Below, piece after piece: positions 3,568-14,604 of a stretch of 64,000 nucleotides of DNA. The position numbers and the translations under genes are program-made. This stretch comes from Chloroflexia bacterium SDU3-3. GTDB lineage: Bacteria; Chloroflexota; Chloroflexia; Chloroflexales; Roseiflexaceae. The stretch is from assembly GCA_009268125.1 (NCBI GenBank), contig WBOU01000005.1, positions 248,001-312,000 on the forward strand, read 5' to 3'. Under the pieces are notes generated by a model. It saw only the letters and a program-made list of their open reading frames with translations. It had not been told where the DNA came from and searched no databases. How positions within the stretch are numbered: position 1 is the first letter of the stretch; each line of letters starts with the position of its first letter.

Positions 3568-5054
3568 TGGAAGAGACACGCGTGCTCATCCTCTCGGCGG
3601 CGGTCGGCGCAGGGCACAAGACTGCGGCGCGGGCGCTGGAGAAGGCGTTTCGCAAGTACCCGCATGTGCAGGTGGCCAACCAAGACATCCTGGACATGAC
3701 CAACGACGCCTATAGCCGGATCTCATCCGAGGTCTACCTAGAGGCGGTGAAGCGCGTGCCCTGGCTGGTGGGCGTGGCCTACCAGTACAACGACGAGCCG
3801 TTCAAGAACGAGGAGCCGCTGCGCCGCATGTGGGACATCCTGAACACGCAGCCGGTGGTGAAGTTTCTCAAAGATTTCCAGCCGCATATCTGCGTGTGCA
3901 CCCACTACACGCCCGCCGGGATCGTGGCTCAGATGATGGCCCAGGGCCAGCTCGACACCTCGCTGTCGGTGGTGATCACCGACTTCGACTTCCAGGGCAT
4001 GTGGCTCTCCAAGACCTTCAACCGCTACTTTGTGGCCCGCGAGGAGGCCAAGGCGCGGCTGGTCGACTTCGACGTTGAGCCAGAGCACATCACGGTCTCG
4101 GGCATTCCGGTGGACAGCAGCTTCGGCGAGCCGGTGGACGCCGAGGCCGTGGCCAGGCGCTACGAGCTGGACCCCGCGCTGCCCACGCTGCTAATCTCGG
4201 CGGGGGCGGTGGGCGGCGGCCCGGCGCTGGAGATCGTGACCGAGCTGATGAAGCTGCGCCACGAGGCCCAGACCGTGGTGGTGTGCGGCTCGAACGCCCA
4301 GCTGCGCCGCGACGTGGAGACCCTGGTGCTGCCCCAGGCCCGCAAGTTCCGCGCGCTGGGCTTCACCAGCGACATGCCCGACCTCATCCGCGCCGCCACG
4401 CTGTTCATCGGCAAGCCCGGCGGCCTGACCGCCTCGGAGTGCATCGCGGCGGGCACGCCCATGATCATCGTCGAGCCAATCCCAGGCCAGGAGGAGCGCA
4501 ACGCCGACTACCTGCTGGAGGAGGGGGCCGCGCTGCGCTGCAACGACCTGGAGATCATCGACTACAAGATCGACCAGCTGCTGGACAGCCCCGAGCGGCT
4601 AGCCCAGCTGCGGGCCAACGCGCGGCGCATCGGCAGGCCCGATGCCGCCGATGTGATCGCCGCCACCGCCCTGGCCGACGAGAACGCGCCGGTGAAGTTC
4701 GACTGGCGCAGCCAGCGCAAGCGGCTGCTGGCCGAGCCGCTGGCCGCCGAGCCGCTGGCCAAGGTCGAGCGCGCCCTGTTCGGGCCAGATGAGAACGAGA
4801 CGCTGGCCTTCTACGAGGATGGCACCGGCGTGTTCTTGGGCACGCTCGACCCCGCGCAGTTTCGCAGCCTGCGCAGGCGGCTGTTCCGCAGCGGCGAGGA
4901 GGTGGCCACCACTACCGTCACCCAGGATGACCTCGACCGCATCCGCGCGCTGGGGATGGGCAGCGAGCTGGTCGACCGGATCAGCAAGCGGGTGCGCTTC
5001 CGCGGCCCGATCACGCTGCGGCGGGTGCGGATCAGCCTGCCCGAGGGCTCGTAG
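3567..5054 (+). CDS. Glycolipid glycosyltransferase, GT28 (MGDG synthase / UgtP-like)
   Basis: Predicted to transfer a hexose from a UDP-sugar to diacylglycerol, making membrane glycolipids at the cytoplasmic face. The 495-residue protein starts with RVLILSAAVGAGHKTAARAL, the MGDG_synth domain signature, and has the GT28 C-terminal donor-binding region with KPGGLTASECIAAGTPMIIV and PGQEERNADYL (about 292-316). After about residue 370 there is an extra 120-residue charged domain not found in short UgtP proteins; I do not recognise it. The GTG start overlaps the stop of the GH1 gene and is preceded by AGGAAAGGAAG. Galactose versus glucose as donor cannot be decided from sequence. MGDG-type lipids are known from phototrophic Chloroflexi, which fits. 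Confidence 0.85.
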   Translation: MEETRVLILSAAVGAGHKTAARALEKAFRKYPHVQVANQDILDMTNDAYSRISSEVYLEAVKRVPWLVGVAYQYNDEPFKNEEPLRRMWDILNTQPVVKFLKDFQPHICVCTHYTPAGIVAQMMAQGQLDTSLSVVITDFDFQGMWLSKTFNRYFVAREEAKARLVDFDVEPEHITVSGIPVDSSFGEPVDAEAVARRYELDPALPTLLISAGAVGGGPALEIVTELMKLRHEAQTVVVCGSNAQLRRDVETLVLPQARKFRALGFTSDMPDLIRAATLFIGKPGGLTASECIAAGTPMIIVEPIPGQEERNADYLLEEGAALRCNDLEIIDYKIDQLLDSPERLAQLRANARRIGRPDAADVIAATALADENAPVKFDWRSQRKRLLAEPLAAEPLAKVERALFGPDENETLAFYEDGTGVFLGTLDPAQFRSLRRRLFRSGEEVATTTVTQDDLDRIRALGMGSELVDRISKRVRFRGPITLRRVRISLPEGS

Positions 5055-5060
5055 GGCGCA

Positions 5061-5089
5061 AAAAAAGGCGGGGCCATAACGGCCCCGCC
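5061..5089 (-). terminator. Intrinsic terminator of the PHP-AlbA_2 gene
   Basis: A 9-bp perfect stem GGCGGGGCC / GGCCCCGCC with loop ATAAC at 5067-5089. Read leftward it is followed by a run of T residues. It lies between two convergent genes but has a T-tract only on the minus strand. Confidence 0.8.
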
Positions 5090-5108
5090 ATGCTGCCTGC
5101 GCGGTCGG

Positions 5109-7439
5109 CTAGACCTCGCCGTACTCCTCAAGCAGCGCGCGCCACTCGCCGGTCAGCTCGTCGCGGCGGGCGGCGTAGTAGATGTGGTCGATACCATTCT
5201 CGTCGCGGTAGACCAGATCGACCTGGCTGCGCATGGGCCGCAGGTAGCCGATATTGCCCCACCAGCGCACCTGATCCTCATCCAGCGGCACATCCTTCAG
5301 GGCCATACGCGCGGCGTACTGGCGCACCGTGCCATCCTCGATATCCTGCAAACGCCACGGCACATTCGAGACCTCGCCGGTGCGCAGGTTGCAGAACACG
5401 AAACGCTTCTCGCCCTCCTCCTCCACCACGCGCACCACCTCGATGCCGGTGCGCGGGCGCGGCACGCGGATGAGGCTGAGCCAGGCATCGGTCAGCTTCT
5501 CGCGCACCACCTCGGGGAACTCGCGGATGTCCTGGCCATCCTTATCCTTCATGGCTAGGTCGAATATCGGCGACTCCTCGTCGTCGTGGTTCACGCGCCA
5601 GATCCCGCCGCGCCCGCGCCAGCGGTAGCGGCGCTCGCCCCAGTTGCCGTTGGCGCTCTCGGGGAGCAGCTCGGGGCTTTCCAGCTCGGGCTGTTTGGGG
5701 TCGTCATCGCTGAAGGCGCGCGGCTCCTGCTCCACTGGCTCCTCGGTCTTGTCGCCCAGCAGGCTCTGCCAGCCCTCGCCCAGGCCCCAGTCGGACACGC
5801 CGAAGAAGATGTGGTCGATCACGCCGTTGGCGTCGCGGTGCACCAGATCGTACTTGATGCGGTTGCCCTGACGGTAGGCCCGCCAGAGGCCCAGCCGCCC
5901 GCGCCACTTCACCTGGCTCTGCACATCGATCTTGCCGTCGCGCAGATCCTCGTAGCGGCTGATCGCATACGACCACAGGCCCTGGGCGCGGTCACGGGTG
6001 ACGCCCGCCGTGGTGCGTAGGTCGCGCACCTCGTAGTACCACTGGCCGCTGCGCTTCTGCGCCGACACCACCTCCACCCCCGAGCGCGGCAGATCCAGCT
6101 CCTGGCCGTTGTCCAGCTCGGTGGAGGCACCGTTGGCGATCGCGCGTCGGCACAGCTGGATGATCTCACTGCGGTCGGCGGGCAGGGTCTGGCCATCGCG
6201 GCGGGTGTAGACCACGCCGTTGCCGCCGATGTAGGGCGGGTGGTCGGGGGCCTTCACCTCCACGCGGATGAGATCCTTGCCCTCATAGTTCAGCAGCTCC
6301 AGCGTCAGGTAGGGCTGGGGGTTGATCTGCTCAAGCACCGTGCGGCGCAGCATGTCGCTCACCTGGTCGGGCTTGCTCACGCCCACCGTCGCACCATCCT
6401 GGCCGCAGCCCACGATCAGGGTGCCGCCGCCGATATTGGCCAGCGCCGCGATGTCGCACCACAGCGTGTCGCTCTGCTCCTCCAGGCGCAGGGCCTGGCG
6501 GTCGGTGGGCGGGCCAAAGCGCAGGGTGTCGATCTCCCACTGCTTCTGGTCGCGCTTGGGCACACGCACGCGGTCGAAGTCGTGCGACGAGAGCAGGGTG
6601 CGCAGGGCCTGGAAGGTGTTGTCGGGCAGCAGCATCTCGTTGTAGCGGTCGCCGATGCCGTGGTAGTGCCAGCCCTCGCCGTTGCCCTCGCTGACGCGGC
6701 GCAGGCGGTGCGCATCCGAGCCTTGGATGCAGAACATGCGGCGCTCGTAGTGCTCGGTCTTGCCGTTGTAGAAGCCGGGCGAGGTAAACTTCTCGTGGTC
6801 GGTGTAGAAGTTGATGAACTCCAGCGCGGCCAGGGCCGGGTGCTGGGTGGCGGCCACGCGGGCCTGGCCGCTGGTGCCCATGCGCAGGGTCTCGGTGATC
6901 ACGCCGTTGGGGCCGTTGGCGTGCGGGGCGATCACCAGGCCACCGGCGCGGGCAATGATCTCGTAGGCCTCGGTGACGTGGCGGGTGTTGGCCACCGATG
7001 TCAGGCCCTTCTTCAGATCCTCGGCGGGGATACCCAGCTGCAGCAGCGTAGCCTCGACCAGGCTGATCGGGCGGTCGGGCGCAAAAATAGCTAAAATATG
7101 CGAGCCATAGTGCGAGGTAAACTCAAAGCCAGGAAGCACGGTCAGCTTTTTCCGCAGTCGCCGGTACTCGTGGATGCGCTCGCTCTCCTCCTCGGTCATG
7201 CGCTGGCCGCGCTCTAGCGCCTCAAGCAGATCAATCTCGCGCAGCATCTGCTCGTAGCCGTGGACCGTGTTGTGGTCGGTGAAGGCGATGATCTCAAGCT
7301 GCCGCCGCTCCGCTTCCTGTAAAATTTCCAAATAGCTGATCGTCGGCTCGGCATAGTCTTCTGAGGCGGGGGTGTGGATGTGTAGGTCGACACGCATCCA
7401 CCGCTTTCCATTCCGCGGTGATTCCCCGTTGGTTGTCAT
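5109..7439 (-). CDS. PHP-domain phosphoesterase fused to AlbA_2 (Schlafen-type) domain
   Basis: A 776-residue multidomain protein. The PHP metal-dependent phosphoesterase occupies about 16-290 with its motifs DLHIHT (18-23), FTDHNT (53-58), GFEF (104-107), PHANG (172-176) and GSDAH (240-244). An AlbA_2/Schlafen-like domain follows at about 318-435, seen in DTLWCDIAALANIGGGTLIV and the later YTRRDGQT. The last 330 residues hold at least two copies of an unrecognised module rich in Trp and Arg (WRGRLGLWRAYR, WRGRGGIWRVNH, WWGNIGYLRPMR) with DLVHRDANG/DLVYRDENG echoes. The start at 7439 has a distant GGAG; the ATG at 7397, right before the PHP motif, is an alternative. It stands alone and has no signal peptide. 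A nucleic-acid or nucleotide-processing role is plausible; a defence role is only a guess. Confidence 0.85.
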   Translation of the reverse strand: MTTNGESPRNGKRWMRVDLHIHTPASEDYAEPTISYLEILQEAERRQLEIIAFTDHNTVHGYEQMLREIDLLEALERGQRMTEEESERIHEYRRLRKKLTVLPGFEFTSHYGSHILAIFAPDRPISLVEATLLQLGIPAEDLKKGLTSVANTRHVTEAYEIIARAGGLVIAPHANGPNGVITETLRMGTSGQARVAATQHPALAALEFINFYTDHEKFTSPGFYNGKTEHYERRMFCIQGSDAHRLRRVSEGNGEGWHYHGIGDRYNEMLLPDNTFQALRTLLSSHDFDRVRVPKRDQKQWEIDTLRFGPPTDRQALRLEEQSDTLWCDIAALANIGGGTLIVGCGQDGATVGVSKPDQVSDMLRRTVLEQINPQPYLTLELLNYEGKDLIRVEVKAPDHPPYIGGNGVVYTRRDGQTLPADRSEIIQLCRRAIANGASTELDNGQELDLPRSGVEVVSAQKRSGQWYYEVRDLRTTAGVTRDRAQGLWSYAISRYEDLRDGKIDVQSQVKWRGRLGLWRAYRQGNRIKYDLVHRDANGVIDHIFFGVSDWGLGEGWQSLLGDKTEEPVEQEPRAFSDDDPKQPELESPELLPESANGNWGERRYRWRGRGGIWRVNHDDEESPIFDLAMKDKDGQDIREFPEVVREKLTDAWLSLIRVPRPRTGIEVVRVVEEEGEKRFVFCNLRTGEVSNVPWRLQDIEDGTVRQYAARMALKDVPLDEDQVRWWGNIGYLRPMRSQVDLVYRDENGIDHIYYAARRDELTGEWRALLEEYGEV

Positions 7440-8520
7440 ATTTTGTGGTTACTCCAAAACATTCAAGATCGCAGATTTCTGTGAGCGCTGGGCGCGCAGC
7501 AATGGCACAACAGTCCACGCGCACCGCGTTCCTTTCTCTTTCTATCTCGTGAGCGCCGCACGACGGCGGCACACCTCGCTTTCCTCTTGTGCTTTTCTAT
7601 CGCCCTGCCGCAGATTCATGCGGCAATAAACCCATAAATGATAAAGACGTAGAACCTGTGACTTTTCGCGCATATCATACTCGAAAGCAAGCCGGATGGC
7701 AATGGTATGGGCTTCTGGCTGCGCTTGTTTTCTGCGGCGCGGCGCGGCGCTTCCCAGTGCGCACGAGCGCGCCATGGCCAGCCACGCGGCGGGGCCGAGC
7801 GGCGGCCAGGGCCGACGATAGCGCTGCCCGATAGTAAGGCATACTACGTGCCACAAAATTGCTCGGGGCCGATGACCAAAGCCATTTAGATATATCTTAC
7901 AAAAACCTAGCGATAATCGCCCTGAAAAATATTCGGGTCTGCAAAGAGAACATACCATATTAATCTTCTTTTTGAAGAAATATACAAATAACGGTAGAAA
8001 ATAACAAGAATTTGTAGTCAATACTTCACGAAAAGAAATAATACATCTTGAGATGGAGAATGAATGCATCGTAAGTCGGTTGCTTGGCTTGACAAAGAAA
8101 AGGGCTTCAAGTACACTTCGGGCATACACACATCCCCCAGATGTAGCAACGAGCGACAGCGCCATGCCGCGTGCGAAGACGGCCCCGCGACGGTTGTCGT
8201 TTTCCCGTTCCCTATGCGCTATGGTGTCACCCTTGTCCCCTCGTGCTACCTGGGCCAAGCTCCAGAACCAAACTGCGCGCAGCGTTCGCCTGCGTGTCCA
8301 AAGCATCCCTGACGCACCCCCGCCGAGGCATACGCCCCTAACGGTCGATCAGGGTAGAGAGAGGGGGAAACAGGCTTTCCAGTCGAGCGCGGCGTTCGCA
8401 CCACTTCAGCGTTGAGGGTCGCCGGGGAGCCGCCGCATGGTTAGCCACCACCTGTCCCGCCAAGGCCCCGGTCATCCCAGATTCCCTTGTGGCCGCTTTG
8501 TAAAGGAGCGACAGATTTCC
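7440..8520. other. 1.1-kb intergenic region with AT-rich island and liv promoter/leader
   Basis: No credible gene. Bases about 7840-8110 are strikingly AT-rich for this GC-rich window. The region carries divergent upstream DNA for the PHP gene and for livK, whose promoter is at 8089-8117, leaving a leader of roughly 400 bases. Open frames crossing it in both directions (7542-8306 leftward, 8053-8415 rightward) have no recognisable domains and no ribosome sites of note. Confidence 0.65.
8089..8117 (+). promoter_or_regulatory. Sigma-70-type promoter of the liv operon
   Basis: TTGACA at 8089-8094, a 17-base spacer and TACACT at 8112-8117. Predicted transcription start about 8124, giving a leader of about 400 bases before livK. 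Confidence 0.75.
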
Positions 8521-14371: not shown

Positions 14372-14373
14372 CC

Positions 14374-14604
14374 GTCGAGGTTCAGTTTGACCCCGTCGAG
14401 GTTCAGTTTGACCCCGTCGAGGTTCGGTTTGACCCCGTCGAGGTTCAGTTTGACCCCATCGAGGTTCAGTTTGACCCCGTCGAGGTTCAGTTTGACCCCG
14501 TCGAGGTTCAGTTTGACCCCGTCGAGGTTCAGTTTGACCCCGTCGAGGTTCAGTTTGACCCCGTCGAGGTTCAGTTTGACCCCGTCGAGGTTCAGTTTGA
14601 CCGC
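14374..14604. repeat. Tandem array: eleven 21-bp units (GTCGAGGTTCAGTTTGACCCC)
   Basis: Eleven head-to-tail copies of a 21-bp unit (GTCGAGGTTCAGTTTGAC plus three bases), beginning three bases after the liv terminator. Copies are nearly identical; one has GGTTCGG for GGTTCAG and one has CCCCA for CCCCG. Because 21 is a multiple of 3, all frames stay open and encode heptapeptide repeats on both strands, but there is no ribosome site or domain, so these are not called as genes. There are no spacers, so it is not a CRISPR array. Confidence 0.9.

Follow-up and report, generated by a model that had tools for sequence, protein, structure and literature searches.

The gene at positions 5109 to 7439 of the window, by which we mean the whole analysed stretch of 64,000 nucleotides, is a near-universal, mostly single-copy core gene of the Chloroflexales, and its product carries a strongly conserved C-terminal module, present in several copies, which has no name in any of the libraries searched and is new. 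The initial annotation had read a PHP domain, an AlbA_2 domain and repeated C-terminal modules in this gene; all three are present in the open reading frame of 776 amino acids, and the modules were left unmatched by the searched libraries. We put it at about an even chance that the protein is a core, vertically inherited and stress-linked factor for the processing of nucleic acid, with RNA a more likely substrate than DNA, and that it is produced jointly with Lon and Hsp20 in the outgroups. The features are:

5109..7439, minus strand: whole gene, ATG start, 776 amino acids; PHP - AlbA_2 - module 1 - half module 2 - module 3
6570..7403, minus strand: PHP phosphoesterase domain (residues 13-290), in which nine putative metal-ligand positions are invariant
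6129..6542, minus strand: SLFN_AlbA_2 domain, residues 300-437, without the E-x-E-h-K acidic motif upstream of AN..GG
5745..6095, minus strand: C-terminal module 1, residues 449-565, the most conserved part of the gene
5460..5645, minus strand: half module 2, residues 599-660, strands and helix only
5112..5459, minus strand: C-terminal module 3, residues 661-776
7440..8436, no strand: upstream gap, richer in A+T, without Rfam match

The initial annotation had also pointed to a large AT-rich gap upstream and to a gene as GC-rich as its neighbours. The gap is real, its G+C content being 0.50-0.58 against around 0.68 in the surroundings, and the gene itself has the G+C content of its flanks. A search with Rfam yielded no RNA element across window positions 5000-8500, and no CIRCE or HAIR heat-shock operator was detected within 400 bases ahead of the window gene. 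The flanks hold a glycosyl hydrolase and a glycosyltransferase (Pfam), as well as a transporter set for branched-chain amino acids (from reading the translations). Elsewhere in the window, a tandem array with a period of 21 (14372-14602; 11 copies, 98% matches) is flanked on one side by an ABC ATPase gene for branched-chain amino acids and on the other by a DUF72-like gene, both named from their translations.

The PHP and AlbA_2 domains

Pfam recorded PHP at residues 18-69 (E 1e-4, under its gathering score), and the NCBIfam profiles related a longer region to two known proteins. Residues 10-266 resemble the N-terminus of TrlF (NF045780, model positions 1-247; E 1.5e-27) and residues 11-248 that of Ppl (NF042955; E 8e-18), and the Ppl model of PADLOC also matched the PHP part (E 3e-13). 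The full-length cut-offs were reached for neither TrlF (96.8 versus 350) nor Ppl (63.7 versus 1000). The match to Ppl stops where the PHP domain ends, and Pfam and NCBIfam gave no match to the C-terminal ATPase of Ppl/TrlF; in this protein AlbA_2 and the new modules follow instead. Judged by these profiles, the PHP part is remotely related to the TrlF/Ppl N-terminus. Weak NCBIfam matches were obtained as well with RNase AM (E 9e-5) and NF041577 (E 7e-4).

Nine residues (H20, H22, D55, H56, E106, H114, H173, D242 and H244) correspond to the motifs of PHP proteins and are what we take to be the candidate metal ligands. The complete metal motifs that had been claimed for this domain were recovered, as all nine positions are the same in each of 76 aligned homologues, a count that leaves out the rows L089, L090 and L091, two of which have lost most ligands. 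The site is thus intact in most homologues. One distant Chloroflexota genome encodes a TrlF/Ppl-like protein (L091:2036-4636) in which a PHP domain with all nine positions is followed by a P-loop-like stretch.

The full-length AF2 model (mean pLDDT 77.5, pTM 0.44) does not define the mutual placement of the domains, and within the PHP domain the stretches 174-193, 209-227 and 243-261 are of low confidence. The PHP region nevertheless matched many PHP structures with Z up to 16.6, including RNase AM (7ug9, Z 12.3) and 2yb1 (with AMP, Z 11.1). RNase AM (RNM/YciV) shares the PHP phosphoesterase fold but lacks AlbA_2 and modules, its model of 275 positions being PHP-sized.

The top match, and thus the closest solved PHP fold, was Endonuclease Q (5zb8, Z 16.6 over 224 residues). 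The lead is narrow (Z 16.6 and 16.1 versus 14.6 for the next PHP), but it does suggest a housekeeping endonuclease of DNA repair, the PHP domain of which would cut damaged DNA while AlbA_2 and the modules would find the lesion. Endonuclease Q has a different C-terminus, however, and is described as carrying a four-cysteine CPXCG zinc motif (PMC4357722). The protein described here lacks such a motif, C237 being the only invariant cysteine among 44 homologues, and its predicted operon partners (see below) are genes of proteostasis and not of repair. We therefore regard a role in DNA repair as unlikely.

The SLFN_AlbA_2 domain (PF04326) was found at residues 320-421, clearly above the Pfam cut-off (E 1.2e-14; 55.3 versus 25.3 bits), and its model has the same fold as 2kyy (Z 12.9), 3lmm (Z 12.6) and the Schlafen cores (Z around 9). 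An acidic E..E.K motif marks the nuclease core of Schlafen-type endoribonucleases. None of the 77 family members showed E-x(3-5)-E-h-K before AN..GG, and given this absence we take AlbA_2, which is here joined to a PHP domain, to be a putative binding part.

The C-terminal modules

The last 330 residues consist of two full modules (449-565 and 661-776) and one half module (599-660). Where the initial annotation had described repeated Trp/Arg-rich modules, these are rich in Gly as well and are in fact copies of one folded unit, and a profile made from the module picked up the copies in relatives independently. The number of copies varies, as the outgroups have a single module (PHP - AlbA_2 - one module) and the Chloroflexales the arrangement module - half module - module. 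Nothing in Pfam, NCBIfam or PHROGs accounted for the C-terminal 330 residues or for the module.

An HMM search with the module, as had been suggested, recovered copies in relatives and gave matches in 53 of the 300 genomes sampled in the phylum. As read from the listings these matches fall within the same gene, although at most 15 candidates were scored per genome and proteins consisting of the module only could therefore be missed. For genome G000 all candidates were scored, and both matches of the module profile lie inside this gene. Among 44 sequences of the order, the invariant columns number 49 of 117 in module 1, 41 of 116 in module 3, 94 of 278 in PHP, 23 of 138 in AlbA_2 and 9 of 62 in half module 2, module 1 having the highest share.

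Structural prediction, another check that had been put forward, yielded a confident model of the C-terminal region alone (mean pLDDT 86.8) but no convincing known fold. Each full module is predicted to start with a hairpin and a helix, followed by three strands and a second helix. Foldseek found nothing for it in the PDB at E <= 0.001, and a profile search of the PDB sequences gave no credible match. Three BFVD rows with E under 0.001 were discarded (TM 0.06-0.14, rmsd above 22). With VIA, for which a PUR-repeat or PH-like fold of the module was considered, the best Z was 3.2; the rows for PURA (Z 3.1, 2.6 and 2.1 over 56-58 residues), Rtt106 and the polo-box were at noise level.

Distribution and inheritance

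The occurrence of the gene within the class was counted from the listing of a sample of genomes with a completeness of 90% or more (60 Chloroflexales and 40 of other orders). It was present in 59 of the 60 Chloroflexales (in one, G016, as a fragment) and gave long, strong matches in 20 of the 40 other-order genomes; the remainder comprised one fragment, two weak matches only and genomes without a match. Within another class, that of genome G195, 123 of 199 genomes matched at E <= 1e-30, mostly with one copy. In four genomes of one family (G378, G405, G431 and G470) there is an additional copy that is more divergent (37-39% to L086). Among the set of relatives, 56 of 60 matched at E <= 0.001 when weak matches are included, and a scan of contigs, covering close relatives only, returned 47 loci, all from Chloroflexota or unresolved MAGs. 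The collections searched outside the Chloroflexota were those of phages, viruses and plasmids.

The best full-length matches across the order show an identity of 59-82%. A FastTree phylogeny of 74 sequences, from which L091 and duplicate loci were left out, held most families together, genus g8 being the exception. As distribution and tree largely follow taxonomy, the core gene appears to be vertically inherited. Recent transfer, at which the AT-rich gap had seemed to hint, is not supported, given the identity maintained through the order, the largely family-wise tree and the flank-like G+C content.

A possibly defensive role had been proposed as well. The PHP domain of Ppl and TrlF is known from defence, and an anti-phage or stress-suicide effector of that kind, in which AlbA_2 and the module take the place of the ATPase, would be in line with the resemblance to the TrlF and Ppl profiles described above and with the plasmid matches listed, which span roughly the PHP part alone (23-29% identity). 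Such effectors would be expected to be patchy, mobile and near defence genes, features that were absent from distribution, context, PADLOC results and tree; the gene is instead near-universal, mostly single copy and vertical, and shows no mobile spread. Phages gave no match to the gene, viral contigs none to the protein (P0001) or the module profile, and plasmids none over the whole length; a phage origin was rejected on the former two. Whether homologs sit in defence islands had been raised explicitly: no defence genes were found among the neighbours, and of the seven neighbours of the window gene scanned with PADLOC only a DprA-like one matched, via DprA-like models, so that a defence island is not supported. 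What was found is largely the picture that the initial annotation had named as speaking against its proposal, namely a core gene among housekeeping neighbours; in the outgroups its context is lon/hsp20. An anti-phage function is thus very improbable, and the sole link with defence is that the PHP part remotely resembles Ppl and TrlF. The idea of a nuclease-type enzyme, on the other hand, remains the best biochemical guess on basis of the PHP and AlbA_2 profiles and folds.

Genomic neighbourhood and proposed function

The context was analyzed for 65 loci, of which 25 came from earlier matches and 40 from the 123 matching genomes of the G195 class, the latter picked for upstream room; neighbours were identified with Pfam and NCBIfam. 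The upstream counts are based on 59 loci whose upstream stretch spans 2.8 kb or more; in the other 6 it was too short. In these outgroups lon lies upstream on the same strand in 34 of 59 loci, in 32 cases within 700 bp, and was not found in the other 25. It is preceded by hsp20 in 22 of 59, a gene for a single receiver domain is linked in 14 of 59, and all three genes are present in eight. The intergenic gaps calculated from the coordinates at L086 are 9, 22 and 26 bases. The arrangement suggests that in the outgroups the gene closes a predicted operon, hsp20 - lon - (receiver) - gene. No excess of CIRCE or HAIR over shuffled sequences was seen, either in 77 sequences preceding the gene or in 21 preceding hsp20. 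A conserved cluster of opposite-strand ORFs beside lon was discarded as the shadow of lon itself.

Downstream, where 58 of the 65 loci have at least 900 bases, an RNase Z gene follows on the same strand in 6 of 65 loci and a mogA-like gene in 12; the latter, a molybdopterin gene of the outgroups, is directly adjacent (e.g. L147:6685-7290). Inside the Chloroflexales no general neighbour was found but only clade-local ones, for instance a small ORF and an integrase-like gene, each in 11 loci. A small conserved ORF (109-187 amino acids as called; L023:9402-9764 and 10 further loci) is divergent from the gene and occurs both in g8 and in relatives of the window's family (cluster 8). Its L023 member was scanned without a Pfam match, and in the gap of the window it gave weak tblastn matches only.

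The linked receiver gene (14 of 59 outgroup loci) could also be read as the regulator of a small-molecule phosphoesterase sensor, acting on a nucleotide second messenger or a 3',5'-nucleoside bisphosphate. The PHP part does show weak matches to PHP proteins with such substrates, NF041577 and 2yb1, but by profile its closest relatives are of the TrlF/Ppl type, and the large C-terminal part that comprises AlbA_2 and the modules, 450 residues long, is what one would sooner expect for a polymer or protein partner. We consider such a sensor quite unlikely.

The reading that we prefer, a stress-linked factor acting on nucleic acid, would work as follows. The protein would be made together with Lon and Hsp20 upon protein damage; its PHP site would hydrolyse phosphodiester bonds of nucleic acid, more likely RNA than DNA, while AlbA_2 and the modules would bind the substrate, a ribonucleoprotein or a protein partner. 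In the Chloroflexales the gene lies outside that operon and the module has multiplied. Counting against this reading are the 25 outgroup loci in which lon was not found, the missing general context in the Chloroflexales, the heat-shock operators that showed no excess and the loss of catalytic residues in genus g8 (see below). RNA is favoured over DNA on indirect grounds, namely the relation of AlbA_2 to Schlafen, the few RNase Z neighbours and the relation to RNase AM; against this stand the DNA-repair enzyme Endonuclease Q as closest PHP fold and the small number of loci adjoining RNase Z.

PHP and AlbA_2 are known kinds of domain. For the module and for the combination no account was found in the open-licence literature searched, where neither titles nor abstracts describe a PHP - AlbA_2 - module architecture. 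An old and near-universal protein of several Chloroflexota lineages thus contains a conserved domain without a name in the libraries searched, and adjoins Lon/Hsp20 in many relatives. If protein quality control is truly linked to nucleic-acid cleavage, the phylum, in which genetics is little developed, would gain a stress pathway that can be tested. A housekeeping relative of the Ppl/TrlF PHP domain also bears on the origin of such defence enzymes.

Degeneration of the PHP domain in genus g8

Genus g8, which belongs to the window's own family, provides a natural experiment in which the part played by the catalytic site can be told apart from that of the modules. In all ten gene copies examined, H22, H56, H114, H173, D242 and H244 are altered, and of the remaining candidate ligands H20 is retained in 6 copies, D55 in 4 and E106 in 1. 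Since catalytic residues have been lost in all ten, phosphoesterase activity is apparently not needed in g8. The omega values, taken from the two least saturated pairs (L108-L104 and L109-L090; most other dS values are saturated), are 0.07-0.08 in the PHP region and lower, at 0-0.05, in the modules. The PHP region is therefore retained under purifying selection without its metal site, with the modules under the strongest constraint, and in our preferred interpretation the modules are no less important than the phosphoesterase.

One may go further and regard the protein as a scaffold or binding factor throughout, with PHP catalysis dispensable and the essential function held by the modules and AlbA_2. 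The substitutions and omega values in g8 agree with this, but the nine positions intact in all 76 other homologues do not, and we consider it improbable. A more specific form of the stress-linked reading has the module as a new recognition domain for nucleic acid or ribonucleoprotein, which upon protein damage would steer the PHP nuclease to RNA or stalled translation products, with RNA clearance and Lon proteolysis as a co-expressed unit of quality control in the Chloroflexota and the g8 protein as a catalytically dead scaffold that is still under selection; this is offered tentatively, as unlikely.

In the tree, the g8 sequences form a long basal branch within the order, apart from their own family, probably because their PHP domain has degenerated. 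Three of the ten g8 copies are incomplete: two lie at or near contig ends, and one is split in two frames. In L103, a locus of g8, the gene is broken into two open frames that match query residues 49-581 and 619-776.
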